Under the pieces are notes generated by a model. It searched no databases. It was not told the DNA's origin and saw only the letters and a program-made list of their open reading frames with translations. The position numbers and the translations under genes were made by a program. Positions 11,915 to 51,612 of a DNA stretch of 64,000 nucleotides are shown here, in pieces (position 1 is the first letter of the stretch; each line of letters opens with the position of its first letter). Source of the stretch: Bergeyella cardium (lineage in GTDB: Bacteria > Bacteroidota > Bacteroidia > Flavobacteriales > Weeksellaceae); the NCBI RefSeq assembly GCF_003614945.1, contig NZ_QYCZ01000001.1, positions 204,001 to 268,000 on the forward strand, written 5' to 3'.

Positions 11915-11981
11915 TTATTAAGAAAACAAGGGTATTATTAATCCGAACCGATGATGTATTGGTTTGGATTTTTTTTTGTTT

Positions 11982-12164
11982 ATGGATGGCAAGTGGGTGT
12001 TGGAATGGCGCAAGTGGGTGTCGGGATTGTGCGGATGTTTGTCGGAATGATACAGACGCTTGTCGGAATAGTGCAAATGGTTGTCGGAGCAATGCTGGGG
12101 TTTGTCGGGATAGCGCAATAGGTTGTCGGAATGATGCAGATGCTTGTCGGAAAGATGCAGACGC
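11982..12164. repeat. 21-bp minisatellite, about 8.7 copies
   Basis: Eight consecutive 21-bp units run from 11997 to 12164 (consensus TTGTCGGAATGATGCAGACG plus C), with a partial unit before. Units differ at several positions but keep the TTGTCGG core and exact period. Because 21 is divisible by 3 and units lack in-frame stops, ORFs are open through it in several frames; the plus frame reads as a heptapeptide C-R-N-D-A-D-A. This is the main content of the 492-bp gap between convergent pyrD and topA; the rest holds only the topA terminator and AT-rich sequence. Confidence 0.85.
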
Positions 12165-12352
12165 TATCCCTTTTAATACAATCGTATGTTTTTTGATTGC
12201 AATAAGGTGTAAATAGAATGCTTGTTGTTGTTTTAATAATGAAATAGGGTTTTATTTATGATTTATTGATTTTTTTGCTCAATCAAATTTTAACATTTGG
12301 AAGGGGTGGAGTGGTTTTTGGTATAAAGGGGATTGAATTGTATTTGCAGGAA

Positions 12353-34551: not shown

Positions 34552-34735
34552 ATGACCATTAATAATTGTGAATTGGCCACCAAAATAAAAAGTGAGCCAA
34601 TTAATAGTTGTGAATTGGTCGCCAAAATAAAAAGTCGAGCAATTAATAGTTGTGAATTGGTCGCCAAAATAAAAAAGCGAGCAATTAATAGTTGTGAATT
34701 GGTCGCCAAAATAAAAAATCGAGTAATTAATAAAA
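34552..34735. repeat. 42-bp tandem repeat array upstream of nusB, four copies
   Basis: Four near-identical units of about 42 bp run between the TPR gene start and the nusB promoter. Each unit has the core TTAATAGTTGTGAATTGG followed by TCGCCAAAATAAAAA. The second half of each unit keeps the dyad TTGG-N3-CCAA even where the spacer changes (TCG or CCA). There are no spacers, so it is not CRISPR. ORFs are open through it on both strands only because 42 is a multiple of three; neither reading has a start context or family resemblance. Confidence 0.85.
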
Positions 34736-34794
34736 AATCATATACGAATAAAAAAGTTACTGACAGCTCGGTAAGGGAGTTTATTAAAAAATGA

Positions 34795-45371: not shown

Positions 45372-46616
45372 CTATTTTTTCTTATTCGGTTTTGTCTCTG
45401 GGAATGTTAATATACAAATAATATAGAGGCAACTAAAGAGAATGTAGAATGCCAGAGAGGCATCCCAACCGAAATGATCCAGTACTAAGCTCCAAACAAA
45501 ATTAAGGAGGGTATATACCAGATAGCCCAATGCCCAGAAAGCTCCGAACATAATCGTAATCTTTTGTGGGTTCATATCTGGGAGCTCATACGGCAGATTG
45601 AGATATACAGAATATTGGGAAGCCATTACAAAACCCGCAAAACCAAAGAGGATATAAGACAGCAAAACAGAGCTTGGGAGAACGAGTATCCCAGAGAGTA
45701 TAGCGCTAATCATCAGTATGCCGTGGATGATGAGGTAAGGCTTTCTCGGGAAGTTCTTTTTACCCATATACATACTGAAGAGCGTACCCATAATCCCAGA
45801 TGAAGGGATGATAAACAGCATTATGGACTTGGAGAAGTCAGGGTTAAAATTCAATGCCTCTAATTTTGAAGGGAGAGACGCAAGGGAGATGACATAGAGG
45901 AAGAGGAATCCTCCAAAACCGAGAGAGAAAAGATAAACAAATTTATCTTTCAGCGCATCGGAGTAGGTATATTCTTTTGCAATCGCTTCGGAAGAGCTGT
46001 TGCTGGCATTAGGCTCAAAGTCCTTACTGAATGCCAGCCAGAGGGCAAAACTGATTAAGCTTAGAAGGCTAAAACCGAGCATTATATACTGCCAGTGGTC
46101 ATTATGAGTGAGGTAATCGGTAAGGAAGTAGAGTGAGCCACCCACAATTACCGCCCCCATATTATACGAGCCCGTTGTAAGAGCACTGGTGATGATTTTC
46201 TTATCAGCAGGGATAAACTTTGCGATCACCGTATTCATATATACCATTATCATAGAACCTCCGAGCGCCATTATCATTCTTGCAGCGATGTATATCCAGT
46301 AGTTTGGCGAGAAAATCGCAAGGAAAGAAAAGCTCAAAAAGAAAAGCGCCAGTATAGATGCTTTTTTGGGACTCAGTTTGATGAGAATATATGCCGCAAA
46401 GAAATTAGCAAAGATTCTTGCAATGGTTATTGAGTAATTTACCACTTCGGTTACTACGGAAGATACGGCTTTACCAGCGAAGAAGTGGTGGGTAATCTGC
46501 CCAGAGAGGCTGGAACCGATGAGCCAGTTAGAGGCAAATGAGATGTATGCCAATAGCAATATGATAAACATTATTACGCCCTGTGCTCTTGTAGGTTCTT
46601 TTATATTCTCGGTCAT
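45372..46616 (-). CDS. MFS transporter
   Basis: A 414-aa major facilitator with twelve hydrophobic segments. The loop after segment 2 (LIKLSPKKAS) and RMIMALGGSMIMVYMNTVIAKF in segment 4 fit the family. Substrate not identifiable; operon position upstream of an alpha-hydroxyacid dehydrogenase suggests a carboxylate such as lactate (inference). A TACTTTTA box on the minus strand near 46645-46652 may be its promoter. Confidence 0.88.
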   Translation of the reverse strand: MTENIKEPTRAQGVIMFIILLLAYISFASNWLIGSSLSGQITHHFFAGKAVSSVVTEVVNYSITIARIFANFFAAYILIKLSPKKASILALFFLSFSFLAIFSPNYWIYIAARMIMALGGSMIMVYMNTVIAKFIPADKKIITSALTTGSYNMGAVIVGGSLYFLTDYLTHNDHWQYIMLGFSLLSLISFALWLAFSKDFEPNASNSSSEAIAKEYTYSDALKDKFVYLFSLGFGGFLFLYVISLASLPSKLEALNFNPDFSKSIMLFIIPSSGIMGTLFSMYMGKKNFPRKPYLIIHGILMISAILSGILVLPSSVLLSYILFGFAGFVMASQYSVYLNLPYELPDMNPQKITIMFGAFWALGYLVYTLLNFVWSLVLDHFGWDASLAFYILFSCLYIICILTFPETKPNKKK

Positions 46617-46721
46617 AAAAATTCTATTTTATTTTTTTGGGCGGTAAAAGTAGGTATTATTCACTATACAAAAGATGAAAAATTCTAAATATATTCTATT
46701 TATGAAATTAATCATAAAATA

Positions 46722-46729
46722 TACTTTTG
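46722..46729 (+). promoter_or_regulatory. -7 box (TACTTTTG), distal candidate promoter of the cassette
   Basis: TACTTTTG lies 104 bases before the first cassette start codon. If used, it gives a leader of about 100 bases. It may instead predate the cassette insertion. Confidence 0.4.
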
Positions 46730-46804
46730 TATGCAGAAAACAGTTATTTGGAGAAGTTTTATTTCTTTTGCTATTTAGTGGAGATAGAGTTTTATATAAA
46801 TTAG

Positions 46805-46812
46805 TAATTTTG
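46805..46812 (+). promoter_or_regulatory. -7 box (TAATTTTG), proximal candidate promoter of the cassette
   Basis: TAATTTTG ends 21 bases before the GTG start at 46834, the usual spacing in this window; no clear -33. Confidence 0.5.
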
Positions 46813-46833
46813 TAAAGTGAAAATTAGTATAAA

Positions 46834-47694
46834 GTGTCAAGCCTAAGAATCTTATCTCAAATATTCTCGCCTCCTATATTTCAAAAAATAGTGAGACAGG
46901 ATGATTTTATATTATTCCAAAAGCAAATAAAAAAATATCTTAATACAGGAAATTATGATACTAATTTAGATGTAATTAAATCATTATATAAAAATCTTCA
47001 GGAGAGGTATAGATGTGAATATATCTATAAAAATAACTTATTTTTAAAATTAATTAGTGAGTATGGCCTAAGAGTAACATCGGTACTTAATGAATTAAAA
47101 ATTGGCTCTTCAAAGGCTGATTTAGTTCTGTTAAATGGGTCAGTACGAGTTTATGAAATCAAAACGGAACTAGATGATTTTTCTAAACTATCAAAACAAA
47201 TAAATGATTACCAAAAATTTGCAGATGAAGTCAGTGTTGTAACTGATGAAAATAGTGCTAAGAAATTAGAAATTGAATATGCAGATTCAAGTATTGGTAT
47301 CATTATACTTGATGCAAAACATAAGATACAAATAATTAAAGAAGCAGAGAGTAATACTTCCTACTTTAATTTTGATACTATTTTTAAAATTTTAAGAAAG
47401 CAAGAATATATTGATTTAGTTACTGAGAACTTTGGATTTGTACCTGATGTTCCAAATACTCAGATTTTTAGAACTTGTTATAATTTATTAGCGGATATAA
47501 ACATAGTAGATTTTCAAAAGCAAGTTTTAAATAAACTTAAAGAAAGAAAGTTATCAAAACCTAGCTTACTTAGATCTTCAAAAACACCAAGAGAATTGAA
47601 GTATATCTGTAACTCTTTGGATTTTAATGAACAAGAATATTATAAATTGTATGATTTTTTAAAAAATAAAAGTGTATGTACTTACCATATATAA
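46834..47694 (+). CDS. sce7726 family protein with PD-(D/E)xK nuclease signature
   Basis: A 286-aa protein beginning at a GTG codon (46834), 21 bases after a -7 box. The middle has a nuclease-like core: Glu62 in a helix (YRCEYIYKN), Asp96 in SSKADLVLLNG, Glu108-x-Lys110 in VRVYEIKTELDD, and Gln122-x3-Tyr126 in KQINDYQKF. This D, E-x-K, QxxxY order is that of PD-(D/E)xK enzymes. The rest of the sequence fits sce7726 family proteins, which occur next to sce7725 proteins, as here. The C-terminal 100 residues are helical and unassigned. Its end overlaps the next start by 19 bp. DNA cleavage is a prediction. Confidence 0.8.
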   Translation: MSSLRILSQIFSPPIFQKIVRQDDFILFQKQIKKYLNTGNYDTNLDVIKSLYKNLQERYRCEYIYKNNLFLKLISEYGLRVTSVLNELKIGSSKADLVLLNGSVRVYEIKTELDDFSKLSKQINDYQKFADEVSVVTDENSAKKLEIEYADSSIGIIILDAKHKIQIIKEAESNTSYFNFDTIFKILRKQEYIDLVTENFGFVPDVPNTQIFRTCYNLLADINIVDFQKQVLNKLKERKLSKPSLLRSSKTPRELKYICNSLDFNEQEYYKLYDFLKNKSVCTYHI

Positions 47695-48620
47695 GAGGCA
47701 AAAAGTTTGAACTAATTGGGATTAGAAATTTGATAACAGGAAAAGTGCTTAATTCAAATAAAGTATCACCTATAATAGAACCTGTAAAAAATTCATCAAC
47801 ATTAGGAGTTACTCTAAGAGAACTGATTGAAAATAATATTAATTTTACAGTTGTTGTAAATCCACAAGTTGGACAATTTACAGATACGGATACTATTTTT
47901 AATACTATTAAAGAGTTTATGAGTGGAGGTAAAAATTATCAAATAGGAATAATTTTTAATAATAAAAACAAACAAGGGCATCATGAACTGATAGCTCTTT
48001 TACAAAAATACAAAGATTATATTCCTGAATTAACTATTATACATAATGCAATTCTTGATGGGATTTCAGATATTCTTGCTCTGTATGAAGAACATTTTAA
48101 AGTTAGATATAATGTTATAAATTTATCAGCAACAAGTAAAAGATATCACCAAAATTTTAAAGAAAATACTAGGGTAGAACTTAATGATTATTTTAATGCT
48201 CAGCCTAGAAATTCTGATTATTTACAGATAGATGAAAGTGACTTTTCTGAAGAGTATCGCTATTATAAGGAAGATGGATTTATTGGTTTCTCTGATTATC
48301 TTTCTATTGGTGAAGAATACTCTGAAGCAGGTTTTCTCCCCTATGCTGTAGCAATCCATTTATCTTATGAAGATAAAAATAAAAAGAAAATAAAAATAAA
48401 ACATTTTGTTTCTGATTCTAATGATGACCCCTCTGATATTGCTGGTAAATTTGCTGAAGCATTAAAAAAGTTAATTGATTGGTGTAAGAAAACAAAATAT
48501 GAATCTATTGCTATCCCAATATTTAAAGAATATTATGAAACAAAGCATTTTCCTGGATTAGGAACATTAAAGAAACTCTCCCTAATGAATCATATTGATT
48601 TGGTTTTAAAATTAATTTAA
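47676..48620 (+). CDS. sce7725 / Beta family protein
   Basis: A 314-aa protein beginning MYLPYIRGKKFELIGIRNL, the characteristic start of sce7725/Beta-protein family members. It continues with regularly spaced hydrophobic strands and helices (ISPIIEPVKNS-like, NFTVVVNP, YQIGIIFNN, LTIIHNA, YNVINLSA, FIGFSDYLSIG, YAVAIHLSY), suggesting a TIM-barrel-like or other alpha/beta fold. No catalytic motif is evident to me. It overlaps the nuclease-like gene by 19 bp and is followed after one base by the RES gene. Biochemical function unknown; the family name derives from homologues, not from a demonstrated activity. Confidence 0.78.
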   Translation: MYLPYIRGKKFELIGIRNLITGKVLNSNKVSPIIEPVKNSSTLGVTLRELIENNINFTVVVNPQVGQFTDTDTIFNTIKEFMSGGKNYQIGIIFNNKNKQGHHELIALLQKYKDYIPELTIIHNAILDGISDILALYEEHFKVRYNVINLSATSKRYHQNFKENTRVELNDYFNAQPRNSDYLQIDESDFSEEYRYYKEDGFIGFSDYLSIGEEYSEAGFLPYAVAIHLSYEDKNKKKIKIKHFVSDSNDDPSDIAGKFAEALKKLIDWCKKTKYESIAIPIFKEYYETKHFPGLGTLKKLSLMNHIDLVLKLI

Positions 48621-48621
48621 T

Positions 48622-49692
48622 ATGAATTGCTGTATAAATTGTTTTGAAAACCAATATATAAAAACTATTATTAGAGGTAAAAATAATATAGGAAATTGTG
48701 ATTTTTGTGGAGCACAGAATATTAATATTTATAAGGCTTCCAAGTTAGATTTTTATTTTACAGACATTTTAGACTTGTTTGTTACTGATGAAAATGGTGA
48801 TAGATCAATAGGGAAACAAATAACTTCGGATTATTTTGATCATAAAATTTTTGCACAAGAATTAATTGCTAAGAATAAAGTTGAACTACTTATTTCTGAA
48901 ATTATTAAATATTATACTTGCGATTATCAACATTTACTAGATAATCCTGTAAAATTAAAATTTCAAGATGAGGAAGAAGAGAAGCAATCACTTACTCTTT
49001 CTTGGGATAAATTTTCAGAGGAAATTAAAAGTAAAAATAGATTTCATCTAGAAAATGAATTAGATTTGGATAGATTACGCGAATTATTTCAATTTTTCCA
49101 AAAGAAAATAGATAAAAAAGAAATATATTATCGTGCTAGAATTAGTGATAAAAAAGGATATGATAAGAAAGAAATGTGGAATCCTCCTAATGAATTAGCA
49201 AAGAGTGGTAGAGCAAATCCTAATGGTATTTCATATTTATATTTAGCAAAAGATTTAGAAACAACTTTGTATGAAGTAAGAGCGAGTTTGTTTGACTATG
49301 TTTCTGTAAGTAAATTTGAACTCAAACAAGATATAAAAGTAATAAACTTGAGCCATTCAACTTATGATATCTTTGAGCTTATAGGAGCAGAAAAAATACA
49401 GGCTTTAGAAGATGTAATAAAATATGATACTTTTATTAATAAGTTGGAGCAAGAACTGTCAAAACCGAGAAGGAGAAGTGATAGCGAGTTAGATTATTTG
49501 CCAACACAATATCTATCAGAGCTAATTAAATCAATGGGGTTCGATGGTATAGAATTTAAAAGCTCATTACATCAAAATGGCGTTAATCTTGTAATTTTTG
49601 ATAAACCTAAGAATAAGTTTGAAATTTTAGATGTTAGTGTTTATGATATTACAGAGATTATGCTTGATTGTGAGAGAATAGAGAATAAGTAG
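48622..49692 (+). CDS. zinc-ribbon, HEPN-like and RES domain protein
   Basis: A 356-aa three-part protein. The N-terminus has a zinc ribbon: Cys4-x2-Cys7 and Cys26-x2-Cys29. Residues about 35-155 are helical, acidic and resemble the HEPN-type domains found before some RES domains. The C-terminal RES domain (about 165-350) keeps its namesake residues: Arg171 (YYRAR), Arg197 (GRANPNG), Glu218 (TTLYEVRA) and Ser314/315 (FKSSLHQNG). RES toxins of other systems destroy NAD+ and are normally paired with an Xre antitoxin, absent here. The likely role is the toxic effector of the cassette (inference). Confidence 0.8.
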   Translation: MNCCINCFENQYIKTIIRGKNNIGNCDFCGAQNINIYKASKLDFYFTDILDLFVTDENGDRSIGKQITSDYFDHKIFAQELIAKNKVELLISEIIKYYTCDYQHLLDNPVKLKFQDEEEEKQSLTLSWDKFSEEIKSKNRFHLENELDLDRLRELFQFFQKKIDKKEIYYRARISDKKGYDKKEMWNPPNELAKSGRANPNGISYLYLAKDLETTLYEVRASLFDYVSVSKFELKQDIKVINLSHSTYDIFELIGAEKIQALEDVIKYDTFINKLEQELSKPRRRSDSELDYLPTQYLSELIKSMGFDGIEFKSSLHQNGVNLVIFDKPKNKFEILDVSVYDITEIMLDCERIENK

Positions 49693-49745
49693 CTTAATTT
49701 CCCTAAACTTTCAAGAAGTATATAATAGTCTCTAAAAAATAAACA

Positions 49746-50504
49746 ATGCAAGATTTTATTCCAAAACCGCTCATACCTTTTCTTCGCAAAGACCTTAATC
49801 CAAATTATATTTCAGAAGAGAGGGGGATCCTTAAATACCTTAATCCTGATTTTCTGCAAGGAGACAATGATAAGTATATGAAGTTCTACAACCGCCTTGC
49901 GCCTTTCTATGACTTTGGAGAGCGGTGGATTGGCTGGCTGAAATACGGCAATTCCGTTGCTGAAATGAGACGAAAAATGATGCAACTTTTGGAGTGGAAA
50001 GATAATGCTTCGGTGCTCTATGTCTCTATTGGAACGGGGAAAGATTTCAAGTATATGCCCCAAAATATCAATATCAAAACATTATCGCTTGTAGGTATAG
50101 ACATCTCCGAGGCTATGCTCCGCCGAGCGCAAAAGGTATGGAAAGATAAGCTCAACCTCTCTTTGGTAAACTGTCCGGCTGAGGATTTACCTTTCGATGA
50201 TAATAGCTTTGATATTGTTTTCCATGTGGGAGGGATTAATTTCTTCTCCGATAAACAGAGGGCGATTGATGAGATGCTCCGCGTTGCTAAGCCCAATACA
50301 TTACTGATGATTGCCGATGAAACCCAAGATTTCATTCGTGACCAATATCAAAAAAATGTCTTCTCAAAAGAGGCATATAAAGATGCGCATTTTGACCTTA
50401 CCGAAATCCAAAACAGCATCCCTAACAGCGTAACCGACAGGCAAACGCATTTCTTGTGGGACAATCGCTTCTACGCAATTACTTTCAGGAAAACGGCAGA
50501 TTGA
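49746..50504 (+). CDS. class I SAM-dependent methyltransferase
   Basis: A 252-aa methyltransferase of the UbiE/Methyltransf_11 kind. N-terminal RLAPFYDFGERWIGWLKYG, SAM motif I VLYVSIGTGKDFKYM (about 91-105), motif II LVGIDISEAMLRRAQ, motif III FDIVFHVGGINFFSDKQRAIDEMLRVAKPN. Motif I reads SIGTGKD instead of the commoner DxGxGxG. Substrate unknown. Base composition is that of the chromosome, not of the cassette 53 bp upstream. Confidence 0.85.
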   Translation: MQDFIPKPLIPFLRKDLNPNYISEERGILKYLNPDFLQGDNDKYMKFYNRLAPFYDFGERWIGWLKYGNSVAEMRRKMMQLLEWKDNASVLYVSIGTGKDFKYMPQNINIKTLSLVGIDISEAMLRRAQKVWKDKLNLSLVNCPAEDLPFDDNSFDIVFHVGGINFFSDKQRAIDEMLRVAKPNTLLMIADETQDFIRDQYQKNVFSKEAYKDAHFDLTEIQNSIPNSVTDRQTHFLWDNRFYAITFRKTAD

Positions 50505-50744: not shown

Positions 50745-51390
50745 ATGAAAAAGTTTTTTTAATGGCAGTTTCAGCCGTAGTGCTGGCTGTAACAGCAGTG
50801 AATTGTTCAAGGAATGATGACCAAGATTCTGGCTCTGGATAACAACAAGAACGGTATGAACATCTAACGGGTGTATGGGAAGCAAATGCTATCGGTCAAA
50901 TACCTATACCTACCGATGGAGATGGGTATTCTTATACCTATAAAAGACTAGATGACCCGAGCGAAACAGGAAAAGGAGAGGTAACCCAAACGGGACAACA
51001 TACAGAGTATATAGAACTAGGTATGAAAAATGCAAATAAGCGGTTTGTTATCTCTATTATCCCTAAGAAGGAAAAATTTGCTTTCTTCTATGGCATTGAT
51101 GGTCTTGTTGCTGAGGAAAAAGCTCAGTTCAAAGTACTCAAGCATTGGGGAAAAAGAAAATGGGTAGGGAATTTAGCTGGTATGTTTATGGGCTGCTCAA
51201 ACCTTAAGATAGAAGCACAAGATGTCCCAAATTTCTCTAATGTAACTTCGGTAAGTAGTATGTTTAACGGATGCACTTCTCTAGAGTCTGTGCCCAATAT
51301 CAACCAATGGAATCTAAGCGCGGTTCAGGATATACACTCAATGTTTGAAGGAGCAACGAGCTTTAACCAAAGTTTAGAAGGCTTGGTAAT
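50745..51390 (+). pseudogene. broken BspA-like (DUF285) surface lipoprotein gene
   Basis: Three lesions are visible. (1) The T-run at 50754-50760 has seven T; eight would join the start MKKFF to LMAVSAVVLAVTAVNCSRNDD, a lipoprotein signal, while the present frame stops at 50760. (2) An in-frame TAA at 50840-50842 follows SGSG. (3) After about 51385 the sequence turns into dispersed repeat. Between lie a linker and DUF285/BspA-type repeats (MFMGCSNLKIEAQDVPNFSNVTSVSSMFNGC, SMFEGATSFNQS). The 240 bp upstream of it hold only AT-rich sequence and a seven-G run. Confidence 0.8.
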
Positions 51391-51399
51391 AAAGAAGGA

Positions 51400-51612
51400 A
51401 GGAGTATGGCTTTTAGCCTACAAATTAATCGTCCTACTCCCTAATAGGCGACTCTTAGCTATTAGCTTCTGGCTTTTAGCCTCCAAACTAACATTATCCC
51501 TAATTGGAAGGGGGAACATCCCCCCCTGTGGGGTCAACTTTAGACCCTGTAGGGTCAATTTTAGGGGGTATTGCCTTAAAAAAAGGGGCAATGCCCCTAC
51601 TTAATTGGAGGG
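51400..51612. repeat. dispersed repeat cluster inside the gene remnant and at a convergent stop
   Basis: Type A words (CTTAGCTATTAGCTTCTGGC then TTTTAGCC) at 51447-51472 are followed by C/G-rich hairpin blocks (CCCTGTGGGGTCAA, CCCTGTAGGGTCAA, GGGGCAATGCCCC) to 51598. AATTGGAAGGGGGAAC near 51503 recurs as AATTGGAGGGGGAAAC at 51604. The stop codon of the minus-strand gene at 51601 lies in it. Confidence 0.65.

Follow-up and report, generated by a model that had tools for sequence, protein, structure and literature searches.

The window analyzed here, a 64,000-nucleotide (nt) stretch of Bergeyella cardium DNA (NZ_QYCZ01000001.1, positions 204,001-268,000, forward strand), contains an AT-rich insert that carries three genes encoding, in this order, a protein of the sce7726 family, a protein of the sce7725 family and a protein with a RES domain. 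An earlier note on this DNA had put these genes forward as a candidate defense system. In window coordinates, the locus comprises the following features:

46617-49745, no strand: AT-rich insert with the three-gene cassette, about 3.1 kb; GC content 0.25-0.29 against about 0.41-0.42 on both sides
46834-47694, plus strand: sce7726-family gene, 286 amino acids (aa), GTG start; NCBIfam NF033832, E 3.9e-44
47017-47163, plus strand: predicted nuclease motif of sce7726, E62, D96, E108-x-K110, then D114 and Q122; invariant in 56 sequences
47676-48620, plus strand: sce7725-family gene, 314 aa; NCBIfam NF033831, E 2e-84
48622-49692, plus strand: RES gene (zinc ribbon, HEPN_RES_NTD1-like region, RES domain), 356 aa; PF08808, E 3.6e-15
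48631-48708, plus strand: N-terminal zinc ribbon of the RES protein, C4, C7, C26 and C29; cysteines conserved in at least 90% of 53 sequences
49066-49665, plus strand: RES domain (ADP-ribosyltransferase type); predicted active-site residues R173, R197, Y207, E218, Y292, S314 and N322

The coordinates bear out the earlier description of three tightly coupled plus-strand genes, with an overlap of 19 bp between sce7726 and sce7725 and a gap of 1 bp between sce7725 and the RES gene. The insertion had also been placed between housekeeping genes, and the insert indeed borders upstream on a minus-strand MFS-type gene (45372-46616) and downstream on a methyltransferase-like gene (49746-50504). The compositional contrast stands as well, with a GC content of 0.25-0.29 over approximately 46.5-49.7 kb, about 0.42 just upstream and about 0.41 just downstream; the figure of 47% given for the DNA just outside does not, being reached only upstream, near 44 kb. 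Direct and inverted repeats sought at the insert edges in the window amounted to low-complexity matches only, no tRNA lies at the insert in the window, and promoter and terminator scans of this very AT-rich DNA were uninformative. When an empty site was sought, no close relative of the genome with well-shared flanking genes was found.

Conservation and mobility of the trio

A scan of genome contigs with an sce7725 alignment detected more than 500 relatives, the best 80 of which were retained together with flanks of at most 10 kb; a single-sequence scan of the contigs detected none. According to local profile searches, sce7726 lies directly upstream of sce7725 in 79 of these 80 loci, the exception being a contig start, and RES lies directly downstream in 77, with one of the remaining three stopping at a contig edge. 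The phyla labelled among the 80 loci include Bacteroidota, Bacillota, Pseudomonadota, Chloroflexota and Cloacimonadota. Because the list of the best 80 favors near relatives, a phylum sample of 395 Bacteroidota genomes was used as well. Here sce7725 scores above its curated cut-off in 14 genomes, in 13 of which RES follows immediately downstream, and full-length matches to a RES profile of at least 290 bits occur in exactly those 13 genomes, although the construction of this profile from trio members biases the latter count, as opposed to the sce7725-based one. Two weaker, partial RES matches (genomes G098 and G216) have no assigned position. Furthermore, 18 of 5,426 Escherichia coli genomes contain DNA similar to the Salmonella trio, covering at least 80% of it in each case, and all three genes are present in the 15 E. 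coli carriers among the matches listed. Thus, the proximity of sce7726 to sce7725 is borne out, and so is the association of the third gene with this pair in other genomes, on which the earlier proposal had been made to depend.

The pairwise amino-acid distances of the three proteins correlate with r of 0.88-0.89 over 51 loci, compared to a permutation maximum of 0.22; given that shared ancestry alone raises such a correlation, it is to be read as joint inheritance and not as interaction. As the three genes recur in a fixed order across phyla, the trio is a real conserved unit rather than a chance arrangement. Two variants of this organization were observed in an Enterococcus plasmid (L021:7108-8957) and a Listeria phage record (L025), where sce7725 stands beside a different upstream protein that contains an ELK-type motif and is matched neither by the sce7726 profile nor by Pfam. 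In E. coli UTME-9 (L262:13844-14868), the RES gene is annotated as frameshifted, the other two genes being intact.

Multiple observations pertain to the mobility of the trio. A segment of approximately 3,165 bp, which starts about 270 bp before sce7726 and ends about 35 bp after RES, is common to genomes labelled Avrilella, Sinomicrobium, Chryseobacterium, Kaistella and Gelidibacter at approximately 96-99% identity, which indicates that this 3.17-kb unit has been transferred horizontally between genera. The GC content of the trio is below that of its flanks in 41 of 45 loci, with means of 0.311 and 0.390, respectively. The settings of the trio include plasmids, an integrative-element setting in Salmonella and prophage-like contigs, and in E. 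coli it is carried on mobilizable elements with an integrase and a relaxase; a DNA-level search of plasmids with the cassette of the window gave no match. The shared 3.17-kb unit opens with a stretch of about 80 bp bounded by TAGTAGC...GCTACTA (L041:8880-8965; also L042-L045), which could be a recombination site and was not detected in the copy of the window. The substrates of NADAR proteins are ADP-ribose derivatives, and a NADAR gene that accompanies the trio on a Delftia island may therefore be an accessory. The trio genes have been mentioned, with no function given, on this island, where the NADAR-family gene is listed beside the RES gene (PMC8248536), and on a mobilizable element of Pseudomonas aeruginosa (PMC9394441); a similar mention, likewise with no function given, concerns the sce7726/sce7725 pair in a Leptospira region (PMC12457778).

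Predicted folds and relation to gop-beta-cII

The RES protein matches PF08808 with 56.8 bits (E 3.6e-15; cut-off 23.2), and its similarity to HEPN_RES_NTD1 (PF18870) is weak and below the cut-off of that model (E 6.4e-5). In the structure model (predicted local distance difference test, pLDDT, 94.9), the C-terminal domain resembles MbcT (Z 12.4, 3.5 A over 160 residues), NatT (Z 11.6), ParT (11.0) and RES-Xre (10.5). The seven residues listed above are invariant in 53 sequences and match the active-site set of NatT, namely R23, R82, Y93, E104, Y162, S184 and N193 (PMC11535050), a correspondence based on residue order and spacing rather than on a superposition of individual residues. Since the characterized RES proteins vary in their chemistry, acting as phosphorylases or ADP-ribosyltransferases (PMC12457610), NAD+ consumption by the RES protein of the trio is likely, whichever of these reactions it catalyzes. 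The predicted fold thus supports the earlier suggestion that RES is an NAD-consuming effector.

With the RES-Xre toxin-antitoxin modules (MbcT, NatT, ParT) the trio has in common the RES fold, the active-site pattern and probable NAD+ consumption. It differs from them in that there is no antitoxin of the Xre/MbcA/ParS type, the upstream neighbors being sce7725 and sce7726, in the addition of an N-terminal zinc ribbon and a helical domain to RES, and in having a TIM barrel and a nuclease-fold protein as partners. A fusion of a zinc ribbon, NTD and RES in the same domain order as here was noted in a 2013 survey of HEPN domains, the passages of which consulted here treat the protein as a fusion and do not describe the three-gene system (PMC3710099). 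In 2024, the authors of a study on NatT stated that immunity had not been linked to any toxin-antitoxin system with a RES domain and that it was unresolved what this large family does (PMC11535050). Outside the trio, we observed zinc ribbon-RES proteins with companions of about 150 aa that are alike by eye (L204:6531-6989 and L205:5373-5816), perhaps another RES-based pair.

The sce7726 protein matches the PADLOC model 'cll' (E 9.9e-12), which we took to be the cII gene of the gop-beta-cII system of satellite phage P4; this assumption was then tested and borne out by the P4 record and by sequence comparisons. Specifically, sce7726 is similar to P4 cII in BLASTP (E 3e-9) and to the cII family in the profile-profile comparison with hhalign (99.5%, E 8e-23), and the D-E-x-K-D-Q residues are likewise invariant in the cII family, with identical spacing. 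This motif conforms to the PD-(D/E)xK pattern, so that sce7726 is a predicted nuclease. A likeness to the PD-(D/E)xK MmcB-like proteins (PF06319) is borderline (22.1 bits, cut-off 22); sce7726 differs from these in its context, in its extra N- and C-terminal parts and in its far better match to NF033832. Searches of PDB sequences with profiles of the three trio proteins yielded nothing meaningful.

The AlphaFold2 model of sce7725 (pLDDT 94.6) is a TIM barrel, and its best structural match is also a TIM barrel (Z 12.4, 3.6 A over 193 residues); since comparable scores are obtained with many unrelated barrels, the fold points to no particular enzyme. The invariant polar residues E35, N62, D207, H228 and H243 suggest a working pocket. 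Compared with a profile of 11 Beta proteins, sce7725 is matched over residues 1-310 (94.5%, E 8e-8), with controls of at most 1% for 30 column-shuffled Beta profiles and at most 1.5% for the RES, sce7726 and cII profiles; against P4 Beta alone, hhalign gives a non-significant 3.3%, the link being visible only with the Beta family profile. These comparisons support sce7725 as a remote full-length relative of Beta that lies outside the Pfam Beta family, and we propose that its role is that of an antidote or a sensor.

In the P4 record, gop occupies positions 247-648, beta, annotated as a 'beta family protein', 651-1718, and cII, annotated as an 'sce7726 family protein', 1746-2540 on the opposite strand. 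The gop-beta-cII system has been reported to protect E. coli against lambda and P1, and the same authors recall that gop is toxic without beta (Rousset et al.; PMC9122126). Thus, the two systems are linked by cII, which belongs to the sce7726 family and shares its invariant nuclease pattern, and by P4 Beta as the remote relative of sce7725; in both, a third gene encodes a toxin-like effector, Gop in P4 and, as predicted, RES here, and both are mobile and occur in defense hotspots. Elsewhere, sce7726 and a true Beta protein are encoded convergently, close to genes of the XRE/ImmA type or SocA/Panacea genes. The sce7726/cII protein and a partner of the Beta/sce7725 type are therefore a recurring core beside which the third gene varies; this third gene may always be an effector. 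On these comparisons, the trio is best read as a remote relative of gop-beta-cII with an exchanged effector and with one clear and one remote shared component.

Given that gop-beta-cII has already been described, the kind of system is not new. The earlier note knew of no described system with these genes, which holds inasmuch as the literature found does not treat the trio as a defense system (weak evidence, with most subscription papers and preprints outside the search) and fails inasmuch as the described relative was missed. PADLOC 2.0.0 recognizes only sce7726 of the trio, which means that this library misses loci of this kind.

Defense context, proposed action and alternatives

The proteins encoded next to the trio in non-redundant loci, sampled at up to four neighbors per side (139 in total), were set against 139 control proteins taken from randomly chosen regions of Bacteroidota genomes that carry sce7725. 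At a threshold of E 1e-10, the flanks match 158 PADLOC models and the controls 5, these being counts of models, several of which can describe one protein, and the flank loci covering more phyla than the controls; at 1e-45, 47 models are matched in the flanks, the best control match being 4.8e-29. Examples from the flanks are a type III restriction-modification pair, a DpdE/ZorD-like helicase and a further type III restriction enzyme, and other matches include a CBASS cyclase, PsyrT, PtuA, AriA and AbiLi. In E. coli MS 115-1, where the trio lies at positions 4105196-4108064 of NZ_CP146665.1, it is adjoined by a Kiwa KwaB-like gene; the same position in E. coli 300444 is occupied by caspase, TIR and cyclase genes together with a reverse transcriptase; and in E. 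coli UTME-9 the trio is followed by AbiE and BREX. The trio hence clusters with known defense genes, the other point on which the earlier proposal had been made to depend.

We consider it fairly probable that the cassette constitutes an anti-phage system of three genes that moves horizontally, is of the abortive-infection type and is related to gop-beta-cII. This reading draws on the fixed order, tight coupling and co-divergence of the three proteins; on the cII and Beta homologies, in conjunction with the phage protection by gop-beta-cII and the toxicity of gop without beta; on the RES fold and the intact, invariant motifs; and on the defense-island enrichment, the E. coli neighbors, the horizontal transfer and the low GC content, and from these we infer the functional steps. 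At rest, sce7725, probably in a complex with sce7726, would keep RES inactive in the manner of P4 Beta, which suppresses Gop toxicity; it is on this analogy that RES is modelled as a restrained toxin. Infection would be sensed by sce7726 and sce7725, the most likely trigger being the action of phage DNA or of a phage product on the PD-(D/E)xK protein. The released RES domain would then split NAD+ phosphorolytically, like MbcT and NatT, and the resulting NAD+ depletion would arrest the growth of the infected cell before phage release.

Several points weigh against this interpretation. Within the window, no clear defense gene lies near the trio. The source on P4 defense gives no role for cII (PMC9122126). 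No similarity to Gop is detectable in RES, and sce7725 has no match to the Pfam Beta model (PF14350) up to E 1, so that the name Beta given to the middle gene earlier is apt for a remote full-length relationship and not for that model. Moreover, all genes of the trio point in one direction and start with the cII-like gene, unlike in P4, where cII and beta are in convergent orientation. Having the cII component but no Gop and no Pfam Beta, and differing in gene order, the trio is not counted here as a member of gop-beta-cII. Finally, approximately nine sce7726-sce7725 pairs, mostly prophage-borne, have no RES nearby (loci L075, L077, L037, L120, L137, L139, L142, L143 and L145); several viral ones lie near repressor-like prophage genes and a few are chromosomal. 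The existence of these pairs implies that sce7726 and sce7725 may act without RES, and they may use another effector or act alone. Overall, the candidate-defense interpretation of the earlier note is partly supported, by the association, the context and the RES fold, with the relative gop-beta-cII left out of its account.

An unlikely alternative is that the trio is an addiction or stabilization toxin-antitoxin module of mobile elements, in which RES is the poison, sce7725 and sce7726 are the antidote, the module secures the persistence of its element and phage defense is incidental. The location of the cassette on plasmids, mobilizable elements and prophages (PMC9394441) and the role of RES domains as the toxins of toxin-antitoxin pairs are compatible with such a function, but addiction would not require a predicted nuclease whose active site is fully conserved, and the strong clustering with defense genes and the phage protection by the relative gop-beta-cII also speak against it; the two roles are not mutually exclusive. 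Alternatively, RES could be a signal maker whose product, an ADP-ribose phosphate, is bound or processed by the TIM barrel and switches on a DNA-cutting sce7726 nuclease. Such a scheme would accommodate the invariant polar residues of sce7725, typical of an enzyme or ligand pocket, on a TIM barrel, along with the invariant nuclease motif of sce7726, and ADP-ribose derivatives act as immune signals according to a review (PMC9503650); nevertheless, we regard it as very unlikely, considering that the pair is kept intact where RES is missing, that characterized RES enzymes are toxins and that the third gene of P4 is a toxin. The RES-less pairs, in prophages beside repressor genes and in a few chromosomes, would be expected if sce7726 and sce7725 were the whole defense, as nuclease and regulator, with RES as a back-up triggered if the pair is inhibited; the retention of RES in 77 of 80 loci and its co-divergence with the pair speak against this scheme, to which we assign the lowest probability.

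Elsewhere in the window, short open reading frames at 34552-34794 and 11959-12216 consist of repeated peptides (INSCELVAKIKS-like and Cys-rich CRNDA-like, respectively) and are probably tandem repeats rather than genes. A fragment at 51023-51604, which is similar to a BspA-type leucine-rich surface protein and has an unusual repeated tail, is possibly a degraded gene.

The most far-reaching reading, which we hold to be rather unlikely, is that the trio is the first case of immunity based on an NAD+ enzyme of the RES type, that RES makes an ADP-ribose phosphate which the Beta-type TIM barrel, as an active enzyme or ligand receptor, reads to control the sce7726 nuclease, and that the Beta/cII pair is a general core of sensor and antidote, armed in different lineages with Gop, RES or other effectors. 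As a widespread system with a version in E. coli, the trio offers a concrete, cloneable test of the role of RES domains in immunity. Furthermore, as a remote relative with an exchanged effector, it would make gop-beta-cII of P4 one branch of a broad superfamily in which the core of sce7726/cII and Beta/sce7725 is kept and the effector is exchanged.

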